Source: Flavobacterium jejuense (GTDB taxonomy: Bacteria; Bacteroidota; Bacteroidia; Flavobacteriales; Flavobacteriaceae). From it: a stretch of 64,000 bases of DNA. The notes beneath the pieces are model-generated. The model saw only the letters and a list, made by a program, of their open reading frames with translations, did no database searches and had not been told where the DNA came from. Position numbers and translations under genes: made by a program. The stretch is taken from contig NZ_VEVQ02000001.1 of assembly GCF_006491595.2 (NCBI RefSeq), forward strand, positions 372,001 through 436,000, read 5' to 3'. Shown piece by piece: positions 3,927 to 12,215 of the stretch (position 1 is the stretch's first letter; the number at the start of each line of letters is the position of its first letter).

Positions 3927-3997
3927 ACAATTCAGTTGCTAAAAATTACAGTTCGGTCATCATAAATTGAATTCTTTTTTTTTCTAATGCAACTTTG
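3927..3997 (+). promoter_or_regulatory. Predicted LytTR operator and promoter of the TonB receptor gene
   Basis: Two direct half-sites, ACAATTCAG (3927-3935) and ACAGTTCGG (3948-3956), lie exactly 21 bases apart. Each matches 8 of 9 positions of the published LytTR consensus [TA][AC][CA]GTTN[AT][TG]. A -33-like TTG (3967-3969) and the -7-like CAACTTTG (3990-3997) follow, with a 20-base gap. The same arrangement recurs at 6458-6528. Confidence 0.7.
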
Positions 3998-4026
3998 CTT
4001 CATCAAAAACAATAAATAGTTAAGAC

Positions 4027-6180
4027 ATGAAAGTATTTTTTACAATTTTAATAGCATTACTAACCACTTTAAGTTATTCGCAAATTCAAATTACTGGAAC
4101 AATTCAAGATGAATTTGGCCAACCTATTTATGGAGCTAATATTTTTATCAAAGGCACTTATGATGGAGCCATTTCTGATGAAAAAGGAGTTTTTAAGTTT
4201 GAAACTACTGCAAAAGGGGAACAAATTTTGCAAATAAGTTTTATGTCTTATGAAACGATTACTTCGAAAATTAGCATTGAAAATTATAAGAAAAAGACTT
4301 ATACTTTAAAAGAAAATATAAATACGTTAGACGCTGTTGTGGTTTCTGCTGGAACTTTTAAAGCGGGTGATAATAGTAAAACAACTGCTTTAAAACCGCT
4401 AGACATTGTAACTACTGCTGGTTCTGTGGGAAATATTATTGGAGCTTTAGAAACATTACCAGGAACACAAACAGTAGGAGAGAGTGGAAGGCTTTTTGTT
4501 CGTGGAGGCGAAAGTGATGAAACCCAAACCTTTGTTGATGGAATTCGTGTAGCACAACCTTATGGAGCAACAGCTAATAACCTACCAACTAGAAGTAGGT
4601 TTTCTCCTTTTTTGTTTGATGGAGTAACGTTTTCAACTGGTGGTTACAGTGCAGAATTCGGAAATGCTTTATCTAGTGTATTGTTATTAAATACCATCAA
4701 TGAACCCGATCAAAGTCAGACCGATATTTCTGTAATGTCAGTTGGTGCTGGTTTGGGAAAAACACAAAAATGGGAGAAAAGTTCGTTAACATTTAATGCT
4801 AGTTATATCAATTTAGCTCCTTATCAGTTATTAGTTCCTCAAAAAATAGATTGGAACAAACCTGTTCAATCGTATTCAGGGGAAAGTGTGTACAGAAGAA
4901 AATTTAAAAACGGACTTTTAAAAGTATATGGTGCTTTTGATTATACTACTTTCGATATCAATCAAAAAGATGTGAATTTTGCTGAAAAGAGGAACATTGA
5001 CATTCAAAACAAGAATTTTTATTTGAATACAAGCTACAAAGGGTACTTAAATGATAATTTACAATTGCAAACTGGTTTCGGATTTGGCTATGGCCAAAAT
5101 AAAATAGGTATTCAAAACGATTTACTTCAAAATAATGAAAGAGCGTTGCATTATAAATTGAAATTTCGTCAAACGATTACTAGTAGAATTAAGTTGAATG
5201 TAGGTGGTGATTTTTTTCATACTAATTTTGATGAAAATTATACCGCTTTTCAAACCAACCGATTTGATTATGGCTATCAAAATAATATGACGGCTATTTA
5301 TTCTGAAGCGGAAATATTCTTTTCTAAGAAAACGGCAATGAATGTAGGTTTACGTTCTTCAAATGCTTCAATAATTGATCAATTTACGATAGAGCCTAGA
5401 GTTTCTTTTGCTTATAAAATTGCTCAAAACAGTCAGTTCTCTTTGGCTTATGGTAATTTCAATCAAACCGCTAATGCAGATTATTTGAAATATAATTCCA
5501 ATTTAGATTATGAGAAAACCCAACATTATATTTTTAATTACATGTACAATAAAGAAGGCAGAATGTTGCGAGCTGAAGCTTATTTTAAAAACTATGATGA
5601 TTTAGTAAAATATGACGACAATCAACCTAATTTCAATAGTAACTATACGAATACGGGTTATGGTTATGCAAAAGGAATCGATTTGTTTTGGAGAGACAAT
5701 AAAACGGTTAAAAACTTAGATTATTGGGTTTCTTACTCTTTTATTGATTCGGAAAGAGATTATAAAAATTATAATAAGGAAGTTACTCCAAATTTTATTG
5801 CTAATCATAATTTTTCAGTAGTGACTAAGTATTGGTCTGATAAATTAAAATCACAAATTAGTGCTACATATTCTTTCAATTCTGGAAGACCTTATAATAA
5901 TCCAAATATTGCTGAATTTATGAATGAAAAAACCAAATCATTCAATAATTTAAGTTTGAGTTGGGCCTATTTACTTTCGCAACAAAAGATTTTATTCTTT
6001 TCGGTTACCAATGTTTTAAATGCCAATAATATTTTTGGTTACCAATATGCTAATACTGCAAACATAAACGGTCAGTTTCAAAGACAAGCTATTACACAAC
6101 CTGCTAATCAATTCTTCTTTGTTGGTTTCTTTTGGACCATTAGCGATAATAATAAGACTAATAATTTAGATAATTTGTAG
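4027..6180 (+). CDS. TonB-dependent receptor with carboxypeptidase-like N-terminal domain
   Basis: This 717-residue outer-membrane transporter has a signal peptide (about residues 1-18, ending SYSQ), a carboxypeptidase D regulatory-like beta domain (about 20-105, GTIQDEFGQPIYGANIFIKG), a plug domain (about 125-225, including GRLFVRGGESDETQTFVDG), and then an aromatic-rich beta-barrel to the end. There is no SusD partner next to it, and it is shorter than SusC proteins, so it is probably not a polysaccharide-utilisation receptor. The substrate cannot be told. The shared LytTR-like site suggests co-regulation with the kinase operon downstream. Confidence 0.88.
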   Translation: MKVFFTILIALLTTLSYSQIQITGTIQDEFGQPIYGANIFIKGTYDGAISDEKGVFKFETTAKGEQILQISFMSYETITSKISIENYKKKTYTLKENINTLDAVVVSAGTFKAGDNSKTTALKPLDIVTTAGSVGNIIGALETLPGTQTVGESGRLFVRGGESDETQTFVDGIRVAQPYGATANNLPTRSRFSPFLFDGVTFSTGGYSAEFGNALSSVLLLNTINEPDQSQTDISVMSVGAGLGKTQKWEKSSLTFNASYINLAPYQLLVPQKIDWNKPVQSYSGESVYRRKFKNGLLKVYGAFDYTTFDINQKDVNFAEKRNIDIQNKNFYLNTSYKGYLNDNLQLQTGFGFGYGQNKIGIQNDLLQNNERALHYKLKFRQTITSRIKLNVGGDFFHTNFDENYTAFQTNRFDYGYQNNMTAIYSEAEIFFSKKTAMNVGLRSSNASIIDQFTIEPRVSFAYKIAQNSQFSLAYGNFNQTANADYLKYNSNLDYEKTQHYIFNYMYNKEGRMLRAEAYFKNYDDLVKYDDNQPNFNSNYTNTGYGYAKGIDLFWRDNKTVKNLDYWVSYSFIDSERDYKNYNKEVTPNFIANHNFSVVTKYWSDKLKSQISATYSFNSGRPYNNPNIAEFMNEKTKSFNNLSLSWAYLLSQQKILFFSVTNVLNANNIFGYQYANTANINGQFQRQAITQPANQFFFVGFFWTISDNNKTNNLDNL

Positions 6181-6183
6181 AAG

Positions 6184-6239
6184 AGTGATTAGAAACTAGT
6201 TCCTAGTATTTAGTCCTTAGGGATTAGTAAAAAGCTATT
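6184..6239 (+). repeat. Post-stop degenerate heptamer array (AGTGATT type)
   Basis: Eight consecutive 7-base units start with AG: AGTGATT, AGAAACT, AGTTCCT, then AGTATTT, AGTCCTT, and on to AGCTATT. The array starts 4 bases after the receptor stop codon. TAG recurs every 7 bases and therefore falls in all three frames. Confidence 0.8.
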
Positions 6240-6415
6240 ATAAACAAACTTAAAGCATCTATTAATTAACTAAAAGTATATAATATATTACTTTAAGTAA
6301 ATAAAGTATTACTTAAAGTAAATATATGAATACTAAAAGCTTATAAAATGTTGCAAAAAGGTATTAAATAAGAGCTATTAGTGAATAATTAGAAGTTAAA
6401 TGAATCTCTAAGGTT

Positions 6416-6457
6416 GCTAATAACTAAGGACTAAGGACTAAATACTAGGTACTAAAA
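6416..6457. repeat. Degenerate heptamer array (ACTAAGG type), complementary to the 6184 array
   Basis: Six units with a 7-base period: GCTAATA, ACTAAGG twice, then ACTAAAT, ACTAGGT and ACTAAAA. It is the reverse-complement class of the 6184 array, which creates a 19-bp inverted repeat between them. It ends one base before the first LytTR half-site. Confidence 0.75.
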
Positions 6458-6528
6458 ACAATTGATCCTCAAAAAACGACAGTTCGGTAATAATCAATTT
6501 TATTAGAAAGCTAACTAACCGAAATTTG
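6458..6528 (+). promoter_or_regulatory. Predicted LytTR operator and promoter of the 2TM/kinase operon
   Basis: Half-sites ACAATTGAT (6458-6466) and ACAGTTCGG (6479-6487) are 21 bases apart, as in the receptor promoter. ACAGTTCGGTnAT is shared by both. The -7-like GAAATTTG ends at 6528. The distance from the second half-site to TTTG is 46 bases at both promoters. Confidence 0.7.
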
Positions 6529-6582
6529 TTCTATCAAAAAGGAAGAAAGAGTAAAGAAGAAAGAAAAAAGAGTAAAGAAAAT

Positions 6583-6638
6583 TGAAACAACATACAACTT
6601 AGAACATATAACAAATAACAATTTAAAATTTAAACATT
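6583..6638 (+). repeat. Pre-start degenerate heptamer array (ACATATA type)
   Basis: Eight 7-base units, including ACATACA, ACTTAGA, then ACATATA, ACAAATA and ACAATTT, run in phase up to the base before the ATG at 6639. They take the place where a ribosome binding site would be. Confidence 0.8.
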
Positions 6639-7265
6639 ATGACACGAATTATCACATTTATCGCAATCTTCGTAATTTCAGTAGTAACAGCTCAAGCACA
6701 ATATGAAAAAGGAATGCAAGAAGCTTTAACCTTATGGCAAAATGATAAACCAACAGAAGCGATTGCTCTATTTGAAAGGATAGCCTCTGTAGACGAACAA
6801 AATTGGTTGCCTAATTATTACATAGCCTTAATCAACACCACACAATCTTTTCGTTATATGAATGATAAAGCAAAAGTAAAAACACTTTTAGAGGAAGCAC
6901 AAAAAGCACAAGACAAGATGAACAAAATTGCTTTAGATAATCCAGAAGTATTAGTTATGCAAGCTATGATTCATACAGGTTGGATAGTTTATGATCCTAT
7001 GACTAATGGTCAAAAGTTATCTGGTGATGTAATGTATATTTACAATAAAGCGTATCAAATTGCTCCAGAGAATCCAAGAGTTGTGTTTCAAAAAGCTTCT
7101 TATGAAATTGGAATGGCTTCTTATTTTGGTCAAGATACCAAGCCAATGTGTGCTCAAATAGAAAAATCTATAGAACTTTTTGCTAACTTTAAACCGGAAA
7201 CACCATTTCATCCAACTTGGGGTTTAGAAAGAGCACAACAGGAGTTGGAGAAATGTAAAAAATAA
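6639..7265 (+). CDS. Periplasmic TPR-like protein, first gene of the 2TM/LytTR operon
   Basis: This 208-residue protein starts with a clear signal peptide (MTRIITFIAIFVISVVTAQA). Helical repeat-like segments follow: EALTLWQNDKPTEAIALFER looks like one tetratricopeptide unit, and YNKAYQIAPENPRVVFQKAS looks like another. TPR proteins mediate protein contacts. It is 12 bases upstream of the sensor kinase and probably in the same transcript. It could feed an envelope signal to the kinase, but that is inference from position. Confidence 0.7.
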   Translation: MTRIITFIAIFVISVVTAQAQYEKGMQEALTLWQNDKPTEAIALFERIASVDEQNWLPNYYIALINTTQSFRYMNDKAKVKTLLEEAQKAQDKMNKIALDNPEVLVMQAMIHTGWIVYDPMTNGQKLSGDVMYIYNKAYQIAPENPRVVFQKASYEIGMASYFGQDTKPMCAQIEKSIELFANFKPETPFHPTWGLERAQQELEKCKK

Positions 7266-7277
7266 TAAATATTTAGA

Positions 7278-8612
7278 ATGAATTATCTAAGAGAAATTAA
7301 AAAAGCATTGTTAATAGGACTAATTATTTTTATTGTCTTACAAGTAATTAATTTAGTTTTAAACCAAAGCTTACCCAATTTTGAAAGCATCAAATGGAAT
7401 TTTTTATATACTATGCTTTATGCTGTTGTTTTGTATATGGCTAATGCTATTATTTTTATTCAATTAGATAAACATTTTGAAAAAAACAGGTTTCATTTAA
7501 AGCGATTAGTAGTTGGTTTTTTAGCTTCATTTGCCATCTCTGGTTTTGTTATTTTTTTACTGCGAATGTTAGAAGATGTAGTTTTTGAAAGTAAACCTTT
7601 AGATCAATTTTTTAAAACTGAAAGCCCATCAAACTATTTAGTAGCTATGATTATAACCGTTATAGTTACCCTTTTAATTCATTTGGTATATTTCTATAAG
7701 GCTTATCAAGAAAATAAACTGAAAGAACAAAAGATAATTGCAGGAACAGCTTCAGCTAAGTTTGAGAGTTTGAAAAATCAATTGGATCCTCACTTTTTAT
7801 TCAATAGTTTAAATGTGTTAAGCTCTTTAATTGAAGAAAATCCAGAAAATGCTCAAAAATTCACGACTTCATTATCTAAAATTTACAGATATGTGTTGGA
7901 ACAAAGAGATAAAGAATTAGTTTCTGTAGATGAAGAATTACAATTTGCAAAAACCTATATGAATCTTCTAAAAATGAGATTTGAAAACAGTATTACATTT
8001 GAATTGCCTGAAAAATTTGGTAATGAAGAAGCAAAAGTAGTTCCGTTATCACTTCAATTATTATTAGAGAATTGCATCAAACACAATGTGGTGAGTGAAT
8101 CAAAACCATTACATATAAAAATTGCAATTGAAGAAAATCAATTAACAATAAGTAACAATTTTCAAAAGAAAGAAGTATTGCAAAGTAGAAAAGGAGTGGG
8201 TTTACAAAACATTGTAAATCGCTATGCGATACTAACAAAAAGAAATGTATTAGTGGAAGAAAATGAAAAGCATTTTAAAGTTTTCTTACCTATTTTAACC
8301 AAACAAATTACAATTATGGAATCAAAAAATATATATTCAGAAAATATGGCTTATGCTCGAGCTAAAGAAAGAGTAGAAAAATTAAAAGGTTTTTATGGCA
8401 ATCTTATTTCTTATTGTTGTGTTATTCCTATTTTGATAATTATTAATTTAAATACGTCAAGTTTCCAATGGTTTTGGTTTCCTATGTTGGGTTGGGGATT
8501 AGGAGTTACGTTTCATGCTTTGGAAACGTTTGGTTACGGTAAATCTTGGGAAGAAAAGAAAATTCAAGAGATACTAGAAAAGGAAAATAGAGAACAATCA
8601 AAATGGAAGTAA
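7278..8612 (+). CDS. LytS-type sensor histidine kinase fused to a C-terminal 2TM domain
   Basis: This 444-residue protein has four N-terminal membrane helices (about residues 10-30, 42-62, 76-98, 121-142), then the His_kinase domain (PF06580 type) with phospho-acceptor H172 in NQLDPHFLFNSLNV, and an ATP-binding part with ENCIKHNV and KGVGLQNIVNRY. A linker leads to an added C-terminal 2TM domain (about 350-440: RAKERVEKLKGFYGNL, then FPMLGWGLGV and KSWEEKKIQEIL). Such kinases pair with LytTR regulators, and one lies at the end of this operon. The C-terminal 2TM unit matches the four small proteins that follow. Confidence 0.9.
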   Translation: MNYLREIKKALLIGLIIFIVLQVINLVLNQSLPNFESIKWNFLYTMLYAVVLYMANAIIFIQLDKHFEKNRFHLKRLVVGFLASFAISGFVIFLLRMLEDVVFESKPLDQFFKTESPSNYLVAMIITVIVTLLIHLVYFYKAYQENKLKEQKIIAGTASAKFESLKNQLDPHFLFNSLNVLSSLIEENPENAQKFTTSLSKIYRYVLEQRDKELVSVDEELQFAKTYMNLLKMRFENSITFELPEKFGNEEAKVVPLSLQLLLENCIKHNVVSESKPLHIKIAIEENQLTISNNFQKKEVLQSRKGVGLQNIVNRYAILTKRNVLVEENEKHFKVFLPILTKQITIMESKNIYSENMAYARAKERVEKLKGFYGNLISYCCVIPILIIINLNTSSFQWFWFPMLGWGLGVTFHALETFGYGKSWEEKKIQEILEKENREQSKWK

Positions 8613-8938
8613 GGATGGAAAATGATACGAATTCAAAAGAATTGATGGAAGAAATAGCAAGAGAGAAAGTTCAAAAAATTAAAAAGTTTTATACGCATTT
8701 ATTCATTTTTGTAATTGGAGTTATAGTTTATGTTTCTAAGGCTTATTTGGGAGCTCCTTTAAACTTTTGGCCTATAAAGTTTATTAATGAATTCTTTATG
8801 TGGTGTTGGACTTTTATAATTGTAGTACAAGGAATTAGATTGTTTCTTAGCCAAAATATACTTAGTAAAAATTGGGAAGACCAAAAAATTAAAGAGATTT
8901 TAGAGAAAGAAAAAACTAACAAACAAAATTGGGAATAA
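8603..8938 (+). CDS. 2TM-domain protein, copy 1
   Basis: This 111-residue protein is made almost entirely of a 2TM domain: a basic amphipathic helix (AREKVQKIKKFYTHLFIF), two membrane helices, and the closing ENWEDQKIKEILEKE-like motif. The start at 8603 overlaps the kinase stop by ten bases; an alternative in-frame ATG at 8615 would remove the overlap. It is more diverged than the other copies, lacking the GWGLGV motif between the helices. No enzymatic residues are seen. Its role in the kinase pathway is unknown. Confidence 0.82.
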   Translation: MEVRMENDTNSKELMEEIAREKVQKIKKFYTHLFIFVIGVIVYVSKAYLGAPLNFWPIKFINEFFMWCWTFIIVVQGIRLFLSQNILSKNWEDQKIKEILEKEKTNKQNWE

Positions 8939-8939
8939 A

Positions 8940-9245
8940 ATGGAAAAGTATAGTAATGATTATGAGCGTTATCAAAAAGCGCAAAAAAAAGTAAAAGAAA
9001 TAAAAGGATTTTATGGAAACTTAATAAGTTACATAGTAGTTATTTCCGTTTTAGCTTTTATTAACTTGAGCTATTCACCTAATCATTTATGGTTTTTTTA
9101 TCCTATGTTAGGTTGGGGATTGGGTGTTTTCCTTCAGGCAATGAGTGTTTTTAATTTTTTTCCTTTTTTAAATAAAAATTGGGAAGAAAAAAAGATTAAA
9201 CAGTTTATGGAAGAAGAGAAAAATGAAGTAAATAAGTATAAATAA
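8940..9245 (+). CDS. 2TM-domain protein, copy 2
   Basis: A 101-residue protein with the 2TM layout: KAQKKVKEIKGFYGNLISY leads into helix 1, YPMLGWGLGVFLQ forms the entry to helix 2, and NKNWEEKKIKQFMEEEK closes the domain. It is the copy closest to the kinase-fused 2TM domain (shared KGFYGNLISY and PMLGWGLGV). It starts one base after copy 1 ends, so translation is probably coupled. Confidence 0.83.
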   Translation: MEKYSNDYERYQKAQKKVKEIKGFYGNLISYIVVISVLAFINLSYSPNHLWFFYPMLGWGLGVFLQAMSVFNFFPFLNKNWEEKKIKQFMEEEKNEVNKYK

Positions 9246-9254
9246 AAGGAAAAT

Positions 9255-9560
9255 ATGAAAGAAGATTTAAACTATTATAAGGCGAAGAAAAGAGTAGAAC
9301 GAATTAAAGGGTTTTATGGGCATTTAGTGTCATTTATAGTAATCAATTTAGTTTTATACGTAGTTAACTTGGTTACTTACCCTAATGATTTTTGGTTTGA
9401 TTATTGGTTTTACTGGCAACTTCTAATTTGGGGAGTAGGTTTAGTATTTCATGGGATAGTCGTTTTTTATTCACTTCCTTTTTTTGGTAAAGAATGGGAA
9501 GAAAGAAAGGTAAAACAATTTATGGCAGAAGAAGAATATCAAAATAATAAAATGGAATAA
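9255..9560 (+). CDS. 2TM-domain protein, copy 3
   Basis: A 101-residue protein: KAKKRVERIKGFYGHLVSF, two membrane segments separated by an aromatic loop (FWFDYWFYWQ), WGVGLVFHG, and KEWEERKVKQFMAEEE at the end. It has the same organisation as its neighbours, with a 9-base gap to copy 2 and 1 base to copy 4. Confidence 0.83.
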   Translation: MKEDLNYYKAKKRVERIKGFYGHLVSFIVINLVLYVVNLVTYPNDFWFDYWFYWQLLIWGVGLVFHGIVVFYSLPFFGKEWEERKVKQFMAEEEYQNNKME

Positions 9561-9561
9561 A

Positions 9562-9930
9562 ATGAGTATAGAGGATAGAATACAAAGAAGAATGGATAGA
9601 AGAGGAGGTGCCGATTTTACTTCTTCAAATCCAGATGAGATTAAATATCAAGAAGCTTTAAAAAGAGTAAAGCGAATTAAAGGTTTTTATACACATGCCT
9701 TGGTTTATATTGTAATTAATATTATGATAATTATTGTTAATGTTCAAGGTTTAAAAGAAGGCGAAAGTTATTTTCAAATTCATAATTTCTTCACTCTTTT
9801 TTTCTGGGGAATTGGTTTGTTAGCACATGGTTTATCCGTTTTTCTGCCAGGAATGATTTTAGGAAGTAATTGGGAAGAACGTAAAATTAGAGAGCTAATG
9901 GAGAAAGAAAAAAAAGAGAAATGGGAATAA
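9562..9930 (+). CDS. 2TM-domain protein, copy 4
   Basis: A 122-residue protein with an extra ~25-residue charged N-terminus (IEDRIQRRMDRRGG) before the 2TM domain (EALKRVKRIKGFYTHALVY, WGIGLLAHGLSVF, NWEERKIRELMEKEK). In other Flavobacteriaceae, 2TM proteins of this form sit beside LytTR systems. The arginine-rich head is the only distinguishing feature of this copy. Confidence 0.83.
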   Translation: MSIEDRIQRRMDRRGGADFTSSNPDEIKYQEALKRVKRIKGFYTHALVYIVINIMIIIVNVQGLKEGESYFQIHNFFTLFFWGIGLLAHGLSVFLPGMILGSNWEERKIRELMEKEKKEKWE

Positions 9931-9953: not shown

Positions 9954-11444
9954 ATGAAAAAAATATTATCTCTAATTCTTGCACTATCTGTAGTTAAATT
10001 AATAATTCATTTTATTGGAAATCAAAATTATGGTTTCCATAGAGATGAATTATTGCATCTATCAGTTAGCGAACATTTAGATTGGGGTTATTTTGAATTT
10101 CCACCATTTATTGCTTTGGCTGGAAAGTTGTCCCATTTTTTATTTGGGTATTCTTTATTTGGAATGCGTTTGTTTCCAACTCTTGCAGGTATTACTATTT
10201 TGATTTTAACTTGTTTAATAGCAATTGAAATTGGAGGAAGAAAGAAAGCAGTTCTATTATCAGGAGTTTTGATTTTAGTTTTTATACCTTTTTATAGAAA
10301 TCATTTACTTTTTCAACCTGTTGCTTTTGATCAGTTGTTCTGGACCTTAAGTTTTTATTATTTAGTTCGATTTTTAAAAACAGAAGCTCATAAATATTTA
10401 CTGCTTTTGGGAATCAGTTTAGCTATAGGATTTCTAAATAAGTATACCATAGTTATTTTAATAGTGGCCATTTTGATTGGATTACTGGTAACACAAAAAG
10501 GAAAAATAATAAAGAATAAATGGCTATATAGTACTGGATTTATTTCTTTTTGTATGGTTTTACCCAATTTAATTTGGCAAATGCAACATCATTTTCCTGT
10601 TTTAAAACATTTTCAGAAATTAAATGAAAAGCAATTAGATGAAATTGGAACTTTTGATTTTATTTTAGATCAATTACATTCTCCTTTTACCTTTATAATT
10701 GCAATAATAGGTTTAATTACTATCTTCTTTGATGTAGAAATTAAGAAGTATAAAGCAATAGGAATTACTTTTTTAGTTGTGTTTTTTGCTATGTGGATTT
10801 TAAAATCCAAAACATACTATTTTTATGCGATTTATCCAGTTGTTTTTGCTTTTGGAGCTTATAAAGTAGAAAAAATGCTTTTAACTAAAAATGTAGTTTT
10901 TTATTCTTTAGTTAGTTTTTTAGTTTTGATTTCTGTTTATTTTATACCAGAAGCTATTCCTGTTTTACCTATCGAAAAATATGTAGATTTTAAAAAAATT
11001 AAACCAAATAGTGAAGGAAGGTATATTTTAACTGGTGATTATGCAGACATGTTTGGTTGGGAAGAACAGGTTAAAATTATTGACAGTGTTTATCAAACAC
11101 TATCAGATAAAGAAAAGAAGGAATGTATTATTTTAGCTGAAAATTATGGTGAAGCAGGTGCTTTAACTGTTTTAGGAGAAAAGTACAATTTACCAAAACC
11201 TGTTTGTAGTCATGGAAGTTTTTGGTTATGGGGAACAGGAACCACATCTGGAGAAATAACCATCACACTTGGAATTGAAAAAGAAATAATTGAAAAAGTG
11301 TTTGAAGAATATCAGTTAATAAAAATTATACACCATAAATATGCAATTGAAGAGGAAAATAACATTCCTATTTATCTTTGTAAAAAAACAAAAATTAAAT
11401 TAAAGAAGATTTGGCCTTCATTTGAGAGTCATGTTTTCGATTAA
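9954..11444 (+). CDS. GT39/PMT-like membrane glycosyltransferase
   Basis: A 496-residue polytopic membrane protein of the ArnT/PMT superfamily, which transfers sugars from polyprenyl-phosphate donors at the outer face of the inner membrane. The conserved acidic pair after the first helix is seen as HRDELLHL (D31, E32), followed by YFEFPPFIALAGKLS, a typical second motif. About ten hydrophobic segments precede a soluble C-terminal ~150 residues. It lies within the 2TM/LytTR operon, 23 bases after copy 4. The acceptor is unknown. Confidence 0.85.
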   Translation: MKKILSLILALSVVKLIIHFIGNQNYGFHRDELLHLSVSEHLDWGYFEFPPFIALAGKLSHFLFGYSLFGMRLFPTLAGITILILTCLIAIEIGGRKKAVLLSGVLILVFIPFYRNHLLFQPVAFDQLFWTLSFYYLVRFLKTEAHKYLLLLGISLAIGFLNKYTIVILIVAILIGLLVTQKGKIIKNKWLYSTGFISFCMVLPNLIWQMQHHFPVLKHFQKLNEKQLDEIGTFDFILDQLHSPFTFIIAIIGLITIFFDVEIKKYKAIGITFLVVFFAMWILKSKTYYFYAIYPVVFAFGAYKVEKMLLTKNVVFYSLVSFLVLISVYFIPEAIPVLPIEKYVDFKKIKPNSEGRYILTGDYADMFGWEEQVKIIDSVYQTLSDKEKKECIILAENYGEAGALTVLGEKYNLPKPVCSHGSFWLWGTGTTSGEITITLGIEKEIIEKVFEEYQLIKIIHHKYAIEEENNIPIYLCKKTKIKLKKIWPSFESHVFD

Positions 11445-11459
11445 AATTACCTATTTAAA

Positions 11460-12215
11460 ATGAACATCATAATTATAGAAGACGAAAAACCAGCTGCAAG
11501 ATTATTACAAAGAAAAGTAGAAAAACTAGGACTACAAGTTAATCAAATGTTACATTCTGTAGAAGAATCATTGCATTGGTTTCAAAATAATATACATCCT
11601 GATTTAATTTTTTTAGACATTCAATTGTCTGATGGTTTGTCTTTTGAAATTTTTGAACAAATTGATATTAAAAGTGCTGTGATTTTTACTACTGCTTATG
11701 ATGAATATGCTTTAAGAGCTTTTAAATTGAATAGTATCGATTATTTATTAAAACCTATTGATGAAGATGATTTGGAAACGGCTGTTGCCAAATTTAAAGC
11801 GAGAACCACTGCAAATACTTCTGTAAGTTTAGATTTTGAAGCAATTAAACGAATGTTGATCAATCCTGTGGAAAGAGAATATAAAACTCGTTTTTCTGTT
11901 AAAATTGGTCAACAAATTAAAGTTATTCCCATTCAAGAAGTGGAGTGTTTTTACAGCGAAAATAAAGGTACCTACTTGCACACATTTGAAAATAGAAATT
12001 ACTTATTAGATCTCACAATGGAACAATTGGAAAATGAATTGAACCCAAAAGAGTTCTTTAGAATTAATCGAAAATTCATTTTGCCTTTAAAAGGAATTAA
12101 AGAAATTCAAGTGCACACTAATTCTCGTTTAAAAATTATTTTGCCCTCTTACAAAGAAGATGAAGTAATTGTTGCTAGAGAAAGAGTCAATGATTTTAAG
12201 ACTTGGTTGGATTAA
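11460..12215 (+). CDS. LytTR response regulator
   Basis: A 251-residue two-domain regulator. The receiver domain (about 1-115) has the acidic pair E7/D8, phospho-acceptor D53 in LIFLDIQLSDG, and K98 in YLLKPIDED. The LytTR DNA-binding domain (about 145-248) includes FYSENKGTYLHT and FFRINRKFILPL. It closes the operon headed by the TPR gene and is the natural partner of the LytS-type kinase. The LytTR-like direct repeats before this operon and before the TonB receptor are its likely targets, implying autoregulation. It overlaps the convergent gene by 4 bases. Confidence 0.93.
   Translation: MNIIIIEDEKPAARLLQRKVEKLGLQVNQMLHSVEESLHWFQNNIHPDLIFLDIQLSDGLSFEIFEQIDIKSAVIFTTAYDEYALRAFKLNSIDYLLKPIDEDDLETAVAKFKARTTANTSVSLDFEAIKRMLINPVEREYKTRFSVKIGQQIKVIPIQEVECFYSENKGTYLHTFENRNYLLDLTMEQLENELNPKEFFRINRKFILPLKGIKEIQVHTNSRLKIILPSYKEDEVIVARERVNDFKTWLD

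Follow-up and report, generated by a model that had tools for sequence, protein, structure and literature searches.

Genes and promoters of the locus

The window analysed here is a 64-kb stretch of DNA that carries, on the forward strand, the gene of a TonB-dependent receptor followed by an operon for membrane signalling (Table 1). Homologs of the TPR-like protein encoded by the operon's first gene, with 37-53% identity, stand at the same position in 73 other loci. The response regulator has both the receiver and the LytTR domain according to Pfam, as expected of a REC-LytTR regulator, and the best NCBIfam matches of the LytS-type kinase and REC-LytTR pair are BtsR and LytR, each below cut-off. 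The glycosyltransferase gene, which sits between the 2TM genes and the LytTR gene, is the variable passenger of the operon: locus L273 has a similar frame there, and L066 has an amidohydrolase instead.

Table 1. Coordinates of the genes and promoter elements in the window.
Feature	Coordinates	Strand	Basis or remark
Receptor promoter, first LytTR-type half-site	3927..3936	+	about -75 to -66; sequence reading
Receptor promoter, second half-site ACAGTTCGGTCAT	3948..3960	+	about -54 to -42; sequence reading
Receptor promoter, -33 element TTG	3967..3969	+	sequence reading
Receptor promoter, -7 box CAACTTTG	3990..3997	+	C instead of T at -12 of consensus TAnnTTTG
TonB-dependent receptor, CarbopepD_reg_2 and Plug, 717 aa	4027..6180	+	Pfam
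Operon promoter, first half-site	6458..6467	+	sequence reading
Operon promoter, second half-site ACAGTTCGGTAAT	6479..6491	+	sequence reading
Operon promoter, -33 region	6498..6500	+	TTT where TTG expected
Operon promoter, -7 box GAAATTTG	6521..6528	+	sequence reading
TPR-like protein, first gene of the operon	6639..7265	+	weak TPR matches, below cut-off; signal-peptide-like start by eye
LytS-type histidine kinase with C-terminal 2TM domain	7278..8612	+	PF06580, PF13239
Four 2TM-domain membrane proteins	8603..9930 (8603-8938, 8940-9245, 9255-9560, 9562-9930)	+	PF13239
PMT_2-type glycosyltransferase, variable passenger	9954..11444	+	PF13231
Response regulator, receiver and LytTR DNA-binding domain	11460..12215	+	PF00072 (E 2.4e-14), PF04397 (E 8.7e-21)

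The pattern ACAATT-N15-ACAGTTCGGT reads identically at 3927-3957 and 6458-6488, before the receptor and before the operon. The half-sites start at 3927 and 3948 in the receptor promoter and at 6458 and 6479 in the operon promoter, with a period of 21 in each, and TTTG starts at 3994 and 6525, each time 46 bases past the start of the second half-site. The original prediction had given this same arrangement, and our re-measurement reproduced it exactly. Its further claim, that the half-sites follow [TA][AC][CA]GTTN[AT][TG], which we take to be the LytTR half-site consensus, agrees with the letters only in part, each of the four half-sites fitting at 8 of the 9 positions and none at all 9. Both promoters also share ATCAAAAA, starting 4 bases past TTTG, which had not been pointed out before. 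Within the 64-kb window, exact matches to ACAATT-N15-ACAGTTCGGT occur at these two places only and no further match exists within 2 mismatches; with up to 3 mismatches there are 4 places compared with 0.74 expected, and none of 100 shuffles gave 4.

The space between the receptor gene and the operon site holds an inverted repeat (6189-6455; arms of 42-80 nt, 70-76% complementary) that ends 2 bases before the site. Parts of this repeat also have matches on three other contigs of the same genome. In the near relative L273, a DUF2141-like gene (assigned by eye) lies between the receptor and TPR genes, at the position of the inverted repeat.

Conservation of the paired site

In the family, ACAATT-N15-ACAGTTCGGTNAT was matched with at most 2 mismatches in 94 of 149 genomes (148 genera), and the reversed control pattern in 26 of the 149, so single matches of such a simple pattern can be chance. 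In the first loci examined, many of the matches precede homologs of the receptor or of the TPR-kinase-2TM-LytTR operon. Stretches of up to 20 kb were fetched around the LytTR orthologs, and the LytTR gene is present in 114 of the 120 loci. The family consensus has ACAATTCAT as first half and ACA[GA]TTC[GA]G as second half; in its fuller form it reads ACAATTCATC-N11-ACAGTTCGGTNAT, a T-rich -33 region and then [CG]A-N-N-TTTG. With up to 6 mismatches over 22 fixed positions, it was found in 45 of 49 receptor upstreams (shuffles 1/147, reversed 0/49; the 49 count the promoter of L059/L060 twice and include the broken receptor of L094) and in 96 of 110 operon upstreams (shuffles 2/330, reversed 1/110).

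Since this consensus was derived from the same loci, the test was repeated, this time scoring each promoter class with matrices that had been trained on the other. A site scoring above every shuffle (5 per region) was then found before all 47 receptors and all 74 TPR-led operons of the family. Among the named loci, a set of 80 added loci that are mostly Flavobacterium, a site above the highest shuffle precedes 47 of 47 receptors and 69 of 69 TPR-led operons, counting only loci that have a receptor or TPR start and at least 150 bases upstream of it. On the opposite strand, the 99% null level was exceeded in 4/47 and 1/74 cases for the family and in 1/47 and 0/69 for the named loci. From the 51 receptor loci, the matrix test leaves out L059 as a duplicate, L094 as broken, and L152 and L169 because no receptor start was found; it also leaves out 36 operons located by the kinase alone. 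Matrices replaced simple mismatch counting, which misses true sites; for example, the receptor site of genome G117, in locus L164, stands at 8 mismatches and was recovered by the sequence model R1 described below. A whole-genome scan with ACARTTCGGTNAT alone was discarded as noise, with 46 matches compared with 53 for the reversed pattern.

Relatives that keep both genes and have lost the half-sites had been named as the outcome that would speak against the original prediction. No such relative was seen, as all the receptors and TPR-led operons tested with the matrices keep the site; on the other side, a few of the 36 kinase-only operons, in which no TPR gene was detected, are without a clear site (L122, L179 and L187 at 9 mismatches, L123 and L177 at 8). 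Locus L298, of Flavobacterium covae, has a receptor gene (4980-7114) seemingly split into two frames of 352 aa each.

The distance to the -7 box is kept as strictly as the half-sites. When sites were chosen by the half-sites alone, 41 of 44 receptor sites and 97 of 103 operon sites had TTTG at offset 67, which is 46 past the second half-site; in the named loci, 46 of 47 receptor sites have TTTG and all 68 operon sites have TTTG or TTTA. Column 40 is T in 44/44 receptor sites and in 99% of the 103 operon sites tabulated. Most of the conservation in the promoters is held by the half-sites and the -33 and -7 boxes. For the named receptor promoters (n=47), the first half-site has 1.61 bits per column and the second 1.52 (first 10 columns), compared with 0.29 in the upstream flank; for the named operon promoters (n=68), the values are 1.84 and 1.72 (again the first 10 columns of the second half-site). 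Each class has its own leanings, with GATATTTG in operon sites and CAAATTTG-like sequences in receptor sites.

Rank in the genome and reach in the order

The sequence model R1 was built from an alignment of 123 sites from which the genome of the window and the same-genus genome G127 were left out. In the 4.75-Mb genome, the two sites of the window rank first and second (E 4.4e-13 and 8.2e-12). The third site (G000:C2:192363, E 0.0013) has the box TTTT rather than TTTG, and a 209-aa protein that matches DUF2306 below threshold starts 24 bases further on. The matches beneath rank three are at noise level.

These results bear on whether the likeness of the two promoters arose by chance or by a recent duplication of a promoter fragment within the genome. 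The two promoters do share 55 of 86 aligned bases, as either origin would allow. Nevertheless, each is separately conserved at its own gene across the family, with the class-specific leanings given above, and the rank under R1 and the cross-trained matrices already refute this explanation, to which we give a negligible probability.

In the order-wide search at E<=1e-4, 45 of 196 genomes have a site, 28 of them in the family of the window and 17 in three other families, where the list omits 131 genomes without a match and the match-less genomes shown begin at the level of the same family. The sites outside the family, in G150, G312 and 15 genomes of family f5, are mostly weaker. Among the genomes listed, all 18 of the same genus have a site at this threshold and 16 of the 18 have exactly two.

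Co-occurrence with the LytTR regulator

Among the 149 genomes searched, 116 besides that of the window have an ortholog of the LytTR regulator with 53-73% identity, which makes 117 when the genome of the window is counted. Genome G061 has a doubtful ortholog at 49%, and the remaining matches are paralogs with at most 47% identity. For the comparison, 118 genomes were scored as LytTR-positive, with G061 counted in and G007 (46%) and G022 (42%) counted out. At E<=1e-5, a site is present in 114 of the 118 genomes with the ortholog and in 2 of the 31 without it (Fisher p 3e-24, uncorrected for phylogeny), and at E<=0.003 in 117/118 compared with 7/31 (Fisher p 2e-20, likewise uncorrected). Because the training sites of R1 and of the matrices lay beside LytTR in LytTR-bearing genomes, the presence of sites there is partly by construction; the absence of sites in LytTR-lacking genomes is not by construction of the model. 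These genomes are often small or incomplete, and the comparison is therefore confounded to that extent.

Both exceptions at the stricter threshold are particular cases. G006 (L241) has a receptor remnant, a broken TPR gene and still recognisable sites, with no kinase or LytTR gene within the fetched stretch, as if the operon were decaying after a recent loss of its regulator. In G051, whose genome is 88% complete, the receptor is a fragment that lies on a short contig. When the best candidates were scored for a receptor ortholog at E<=1e-60, the 31 LytTR-lacking genomes gave none and 27 LytTR-bearing genomes, a set chosen as weak or odd, gave 7; many LytTR-bearing genomes are without the receptor. 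In G074 (L244 and L113) and G054 (L226 and L114), the LytTR gene is unlinked and the operon and receptor sites are still there. That the sites are kept at a distance from the LytTR gene points to action in trans.

The repeat could also be the operator of a different regulator of the LytTR family encoded elsewhere, with the operon and the receptor merely two of its targets. LytTR paralogs share broad half-site preferences, and the genome has 20 LytTR-domain matches, so another LytTR protein could share the site. We consider this unlikely. The site precedes an operon that usually encodes the LytTR ortholog, and it tracks the presence of that ortholog. The three best sites of the genome are far from the other LytTR genes, two being at the locus and the third about 62 kb from the nearest, and the 14 of the other 19 LytTR-domain proteins that align to the regulator at 11460-12215 are at most 34% identical to it. 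The regulator of the operon itself is the better candidate.

Promoter geometry and direction of control

With the TAnnTTTG box counted as -12 to -5, as in the cited part of PMC9723704, the two half-sites fall at about -75 to -66 and -54 to -45, and 10 bases separate ACAGTTCGG from the conserved T at offset 40 (-35). Both promoters and the family alignment therefore show the spacing and position of LytTR-type operators, namely direct repeats about 12 bp apart with a period of 21, placed 10 bp upstream of -35. For LytTR Regulatory Systems (LRS), the passages cited from Zou et al. (2018) describe 9-12-9 bp repeats strongly biased towards a position 10 bp upstream of -35, which are bound by HdrR and required for activation, autoactivation being shown in S. 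mutans (PMC6193735).

In the family set, only 1 of 45 receptor sites and 5 of 103 operon sites carry the consensus T at -12; in the named set, 5 of 47 receptor sites and 32 of 68 operon sites do. From the missing T, a weak core promoter that needs an activator is likely, less so for the operon promoters of Flavobacterium.

Another possibility is that the LytTR regulator binds these sites and mainly represses, as negative autoregulation. A feedback brake is common in two-component systems, the direction of control is not readable from the sequence, and the named operon sites with T at -12, mostly from Flavobacterium, imply that those promoters are not all weak. Against repression, the repeats lie upstream of the -33 element, the position of an activator; T at -12 is rare in the family set, as expected for activator-dependent promoters; and the LRS promoters of the same shape show activation in the cited part of PMC6193735. 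Repression as the main action is thus improbable, and slightly more so than control by another LytTR protein.

The repeats could instead form a variant promoter element of an alternative sigma factor, for which the fixed spacing to the start and the sharing of ATCAAAAA near the start can be cited. A pair of direct repeats at -75 to -45, with 21 bp from one to the next, is, however, not a usual contact pattern of sigma factors. The letters of the repeats are LytTR-like, they co-occur with LytTR, and the TTTG that closes the -7 box belongs to the primary-sigma type described in PMC9723704 (cited part), which leaves a sigma element very improbable.

The two sites are, with high probability, the operator boxes of the LytTR regulator at 11460-12215, which would make the operon and the receptor gene parts of a positively autoregulated two-component envelope regulon. 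As the same paired site is found in relatives at a fixed distance to the start, it is very probable that the regulator encoded in the membrane-signalling operon turns on both this operon and the outer-membrane receptor. From the sequence we infer the following course. The kinase would sense a condition of the cell envelope and phosphorylate the LytTR regulator, and the 2TM membrane proteins would probably help or restrain the kinase. A dimer of the regulator would occupy both direct repeats on one face of the DNA and contact RNA polymerase at a promoter with weak -33 and -7 elements, and so activate its own operon, as positive feedback, together with the TonB-dependent receptor. Further envelope genes may be driven by this switch in other genera.

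The wider regulon in relatives

We examined 40 further stretches, which cover a part of the sites away from LytTR, and 8 of the earlier loci. Among the 71 sites above the cut, 7 belong to the training set or duplicate one of its members. A reading frame follows 67 of the 71: 61 frames belong to eight recurring families, namely DUF2141 (18), the receptor (16), DUF2807 (9), a beta-lactamase fold (5), 2TM genes inside the operon (4), and DUF2306-like, TPR and DUF4440-like proteins (3 each), and 6 are singletons. The Pfam check covered 1-3 members of each family not found in the window, and the DUF2306 and DUF4440 matches are partly below cut-off. Receptor and DUF2141 genes are sometimes divergent with back-to-back sites (L225, L231).

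The original prediction had spoken of a closed regulon of operon and receptor. This fits roughly within the genus, where 16 of the 18 genomes listed have just the two sites, with the genes checked in the genome of the window only, but it fails for the family as a whole, in which the same promoter stands before genes of five or more other families. Since the DUF2141, DUF2807, beta-lactamase-fold, DUF2306-like and 2TM genes of relatives share it, the regulon appears wider than was proposed. We call it an envelope regulon because many of the target proteins start, by eye, like exported or membrane proteins.

Some relatives have an extra site inside the operon, directly past the kinase and before the 2TM genes (L066 10300, L067 9312, L226 5293 and L244 5400), which suggests a separate boosting of the 2TM proteins. 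In G045, two near-identical sites 1.8 kb apart (L068 4797 and 6578) stand before two different proteins of about 200 aa, for which no Pfam match was found.

Comparison with known systems

The pairing of a PF06580 kinase with a REC-LytTR regulator is that of LytS/LytR, AgrC/AgrA and BtsS/BtsR; the operon of the window differs from these in its TPR and 2TM genes and in the target genes seen in Flavobacteriaceae. Compared with LRS (HdrRM, BrsRM), as described in the cited part of PMC6193735, it shares direct repeats of 9 bp with a 12-bp gap, which stand some 10 bp ahead of -35 and before the regulator's own operon, and membrane proteins encoded in that operon. LRS consist of a LytTR protein and a membrane inhibitor with no kinase or receiver, whereas the system of the window has a receiver domain and a PF06580 kinase, promoters of the Bacteroidota type (TTTG box) and membrane proteins with the 2TM domain. 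The Bacteroides 'LRS-like' operons of the same source differ as well: their repeats measure 11 bp, their LytTR proteins have transmembrane segments, and NfeD/DUF2154 proteins accompany them.

There is also a likeness to the Psp/Lia envelope-stress systems, as the targets in relatives include DUF2807 proteins, united under the name 'Toastrack' in the cited part of PMC11237479, and the target in L055 adjoins PadR and PspC genes. The differences are that a Pfam search of the operon genes found no PspA/LiaH, LiaI or LiaF family members, that control would be by LytTR, and that no DUF2807-type target is among the three best sites of the window's genome.

The kinase/LytTR pair of F. johnsoniae mutated in five of five coevolved lines (PMC10197871, cited part) was considered as the same system. 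It has neighbouring locus tags, whereas four 2TM genes lie between kinase and LytTR in F. panacis, and it was therefore not adopted. The Riemerella system is named PhoP/PhoR in the part of PMC5399024 consulted, where the term LytT is absent; the LytTR mentions in the text seen of PMC10057207 and PMC5395568 are not about this regulon; and the main text of the F. psychrophilum start-site paper (PMC9723704), as far as covered, has no 'LytT' term. Among the matches listed by a full-text search of the open-licence literature, no earlier description of the regulon was found. Its kind, a LytTR regulator with direct-repeat autoregulation, is already known; the regulon itself is not found in the part of that literature searched.

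Significance

To our knowledge, few transcription-factor regulons have been described in Flavobacteriaceae. The promoter of this one is regular enough to be recognised at E<=1e-5 in 116 of the 149 genomes, almost every one of which represents a genus of its own, and the weaker sites in three other families indicate that the system may extend past the family. More tentatively, and at somewhat less than even chances, we suggest that it is the dedicated envelope-stress system of the Flavobacteriaceae, in which a kinase with a 2TM domain of its own would be flanked, and tuned in its sensitivity, by arrays of small 2TM proteins, feed back positively through its own operon and act through one promoter design shared by the receptor, membrane proteins, enzymes of the beta-lactamase fold and the secreted DUF2141 and DUF2807 proteins. 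If true, a new type of sensor would be joined to a new regulon. The regulon would also give a context of shared regulation to families of unknown function (2TM, DUF2141, DUF2807, DUF2306-like and the 717-aa receptor), and the question of what these genes do would become a test of a single regulator.
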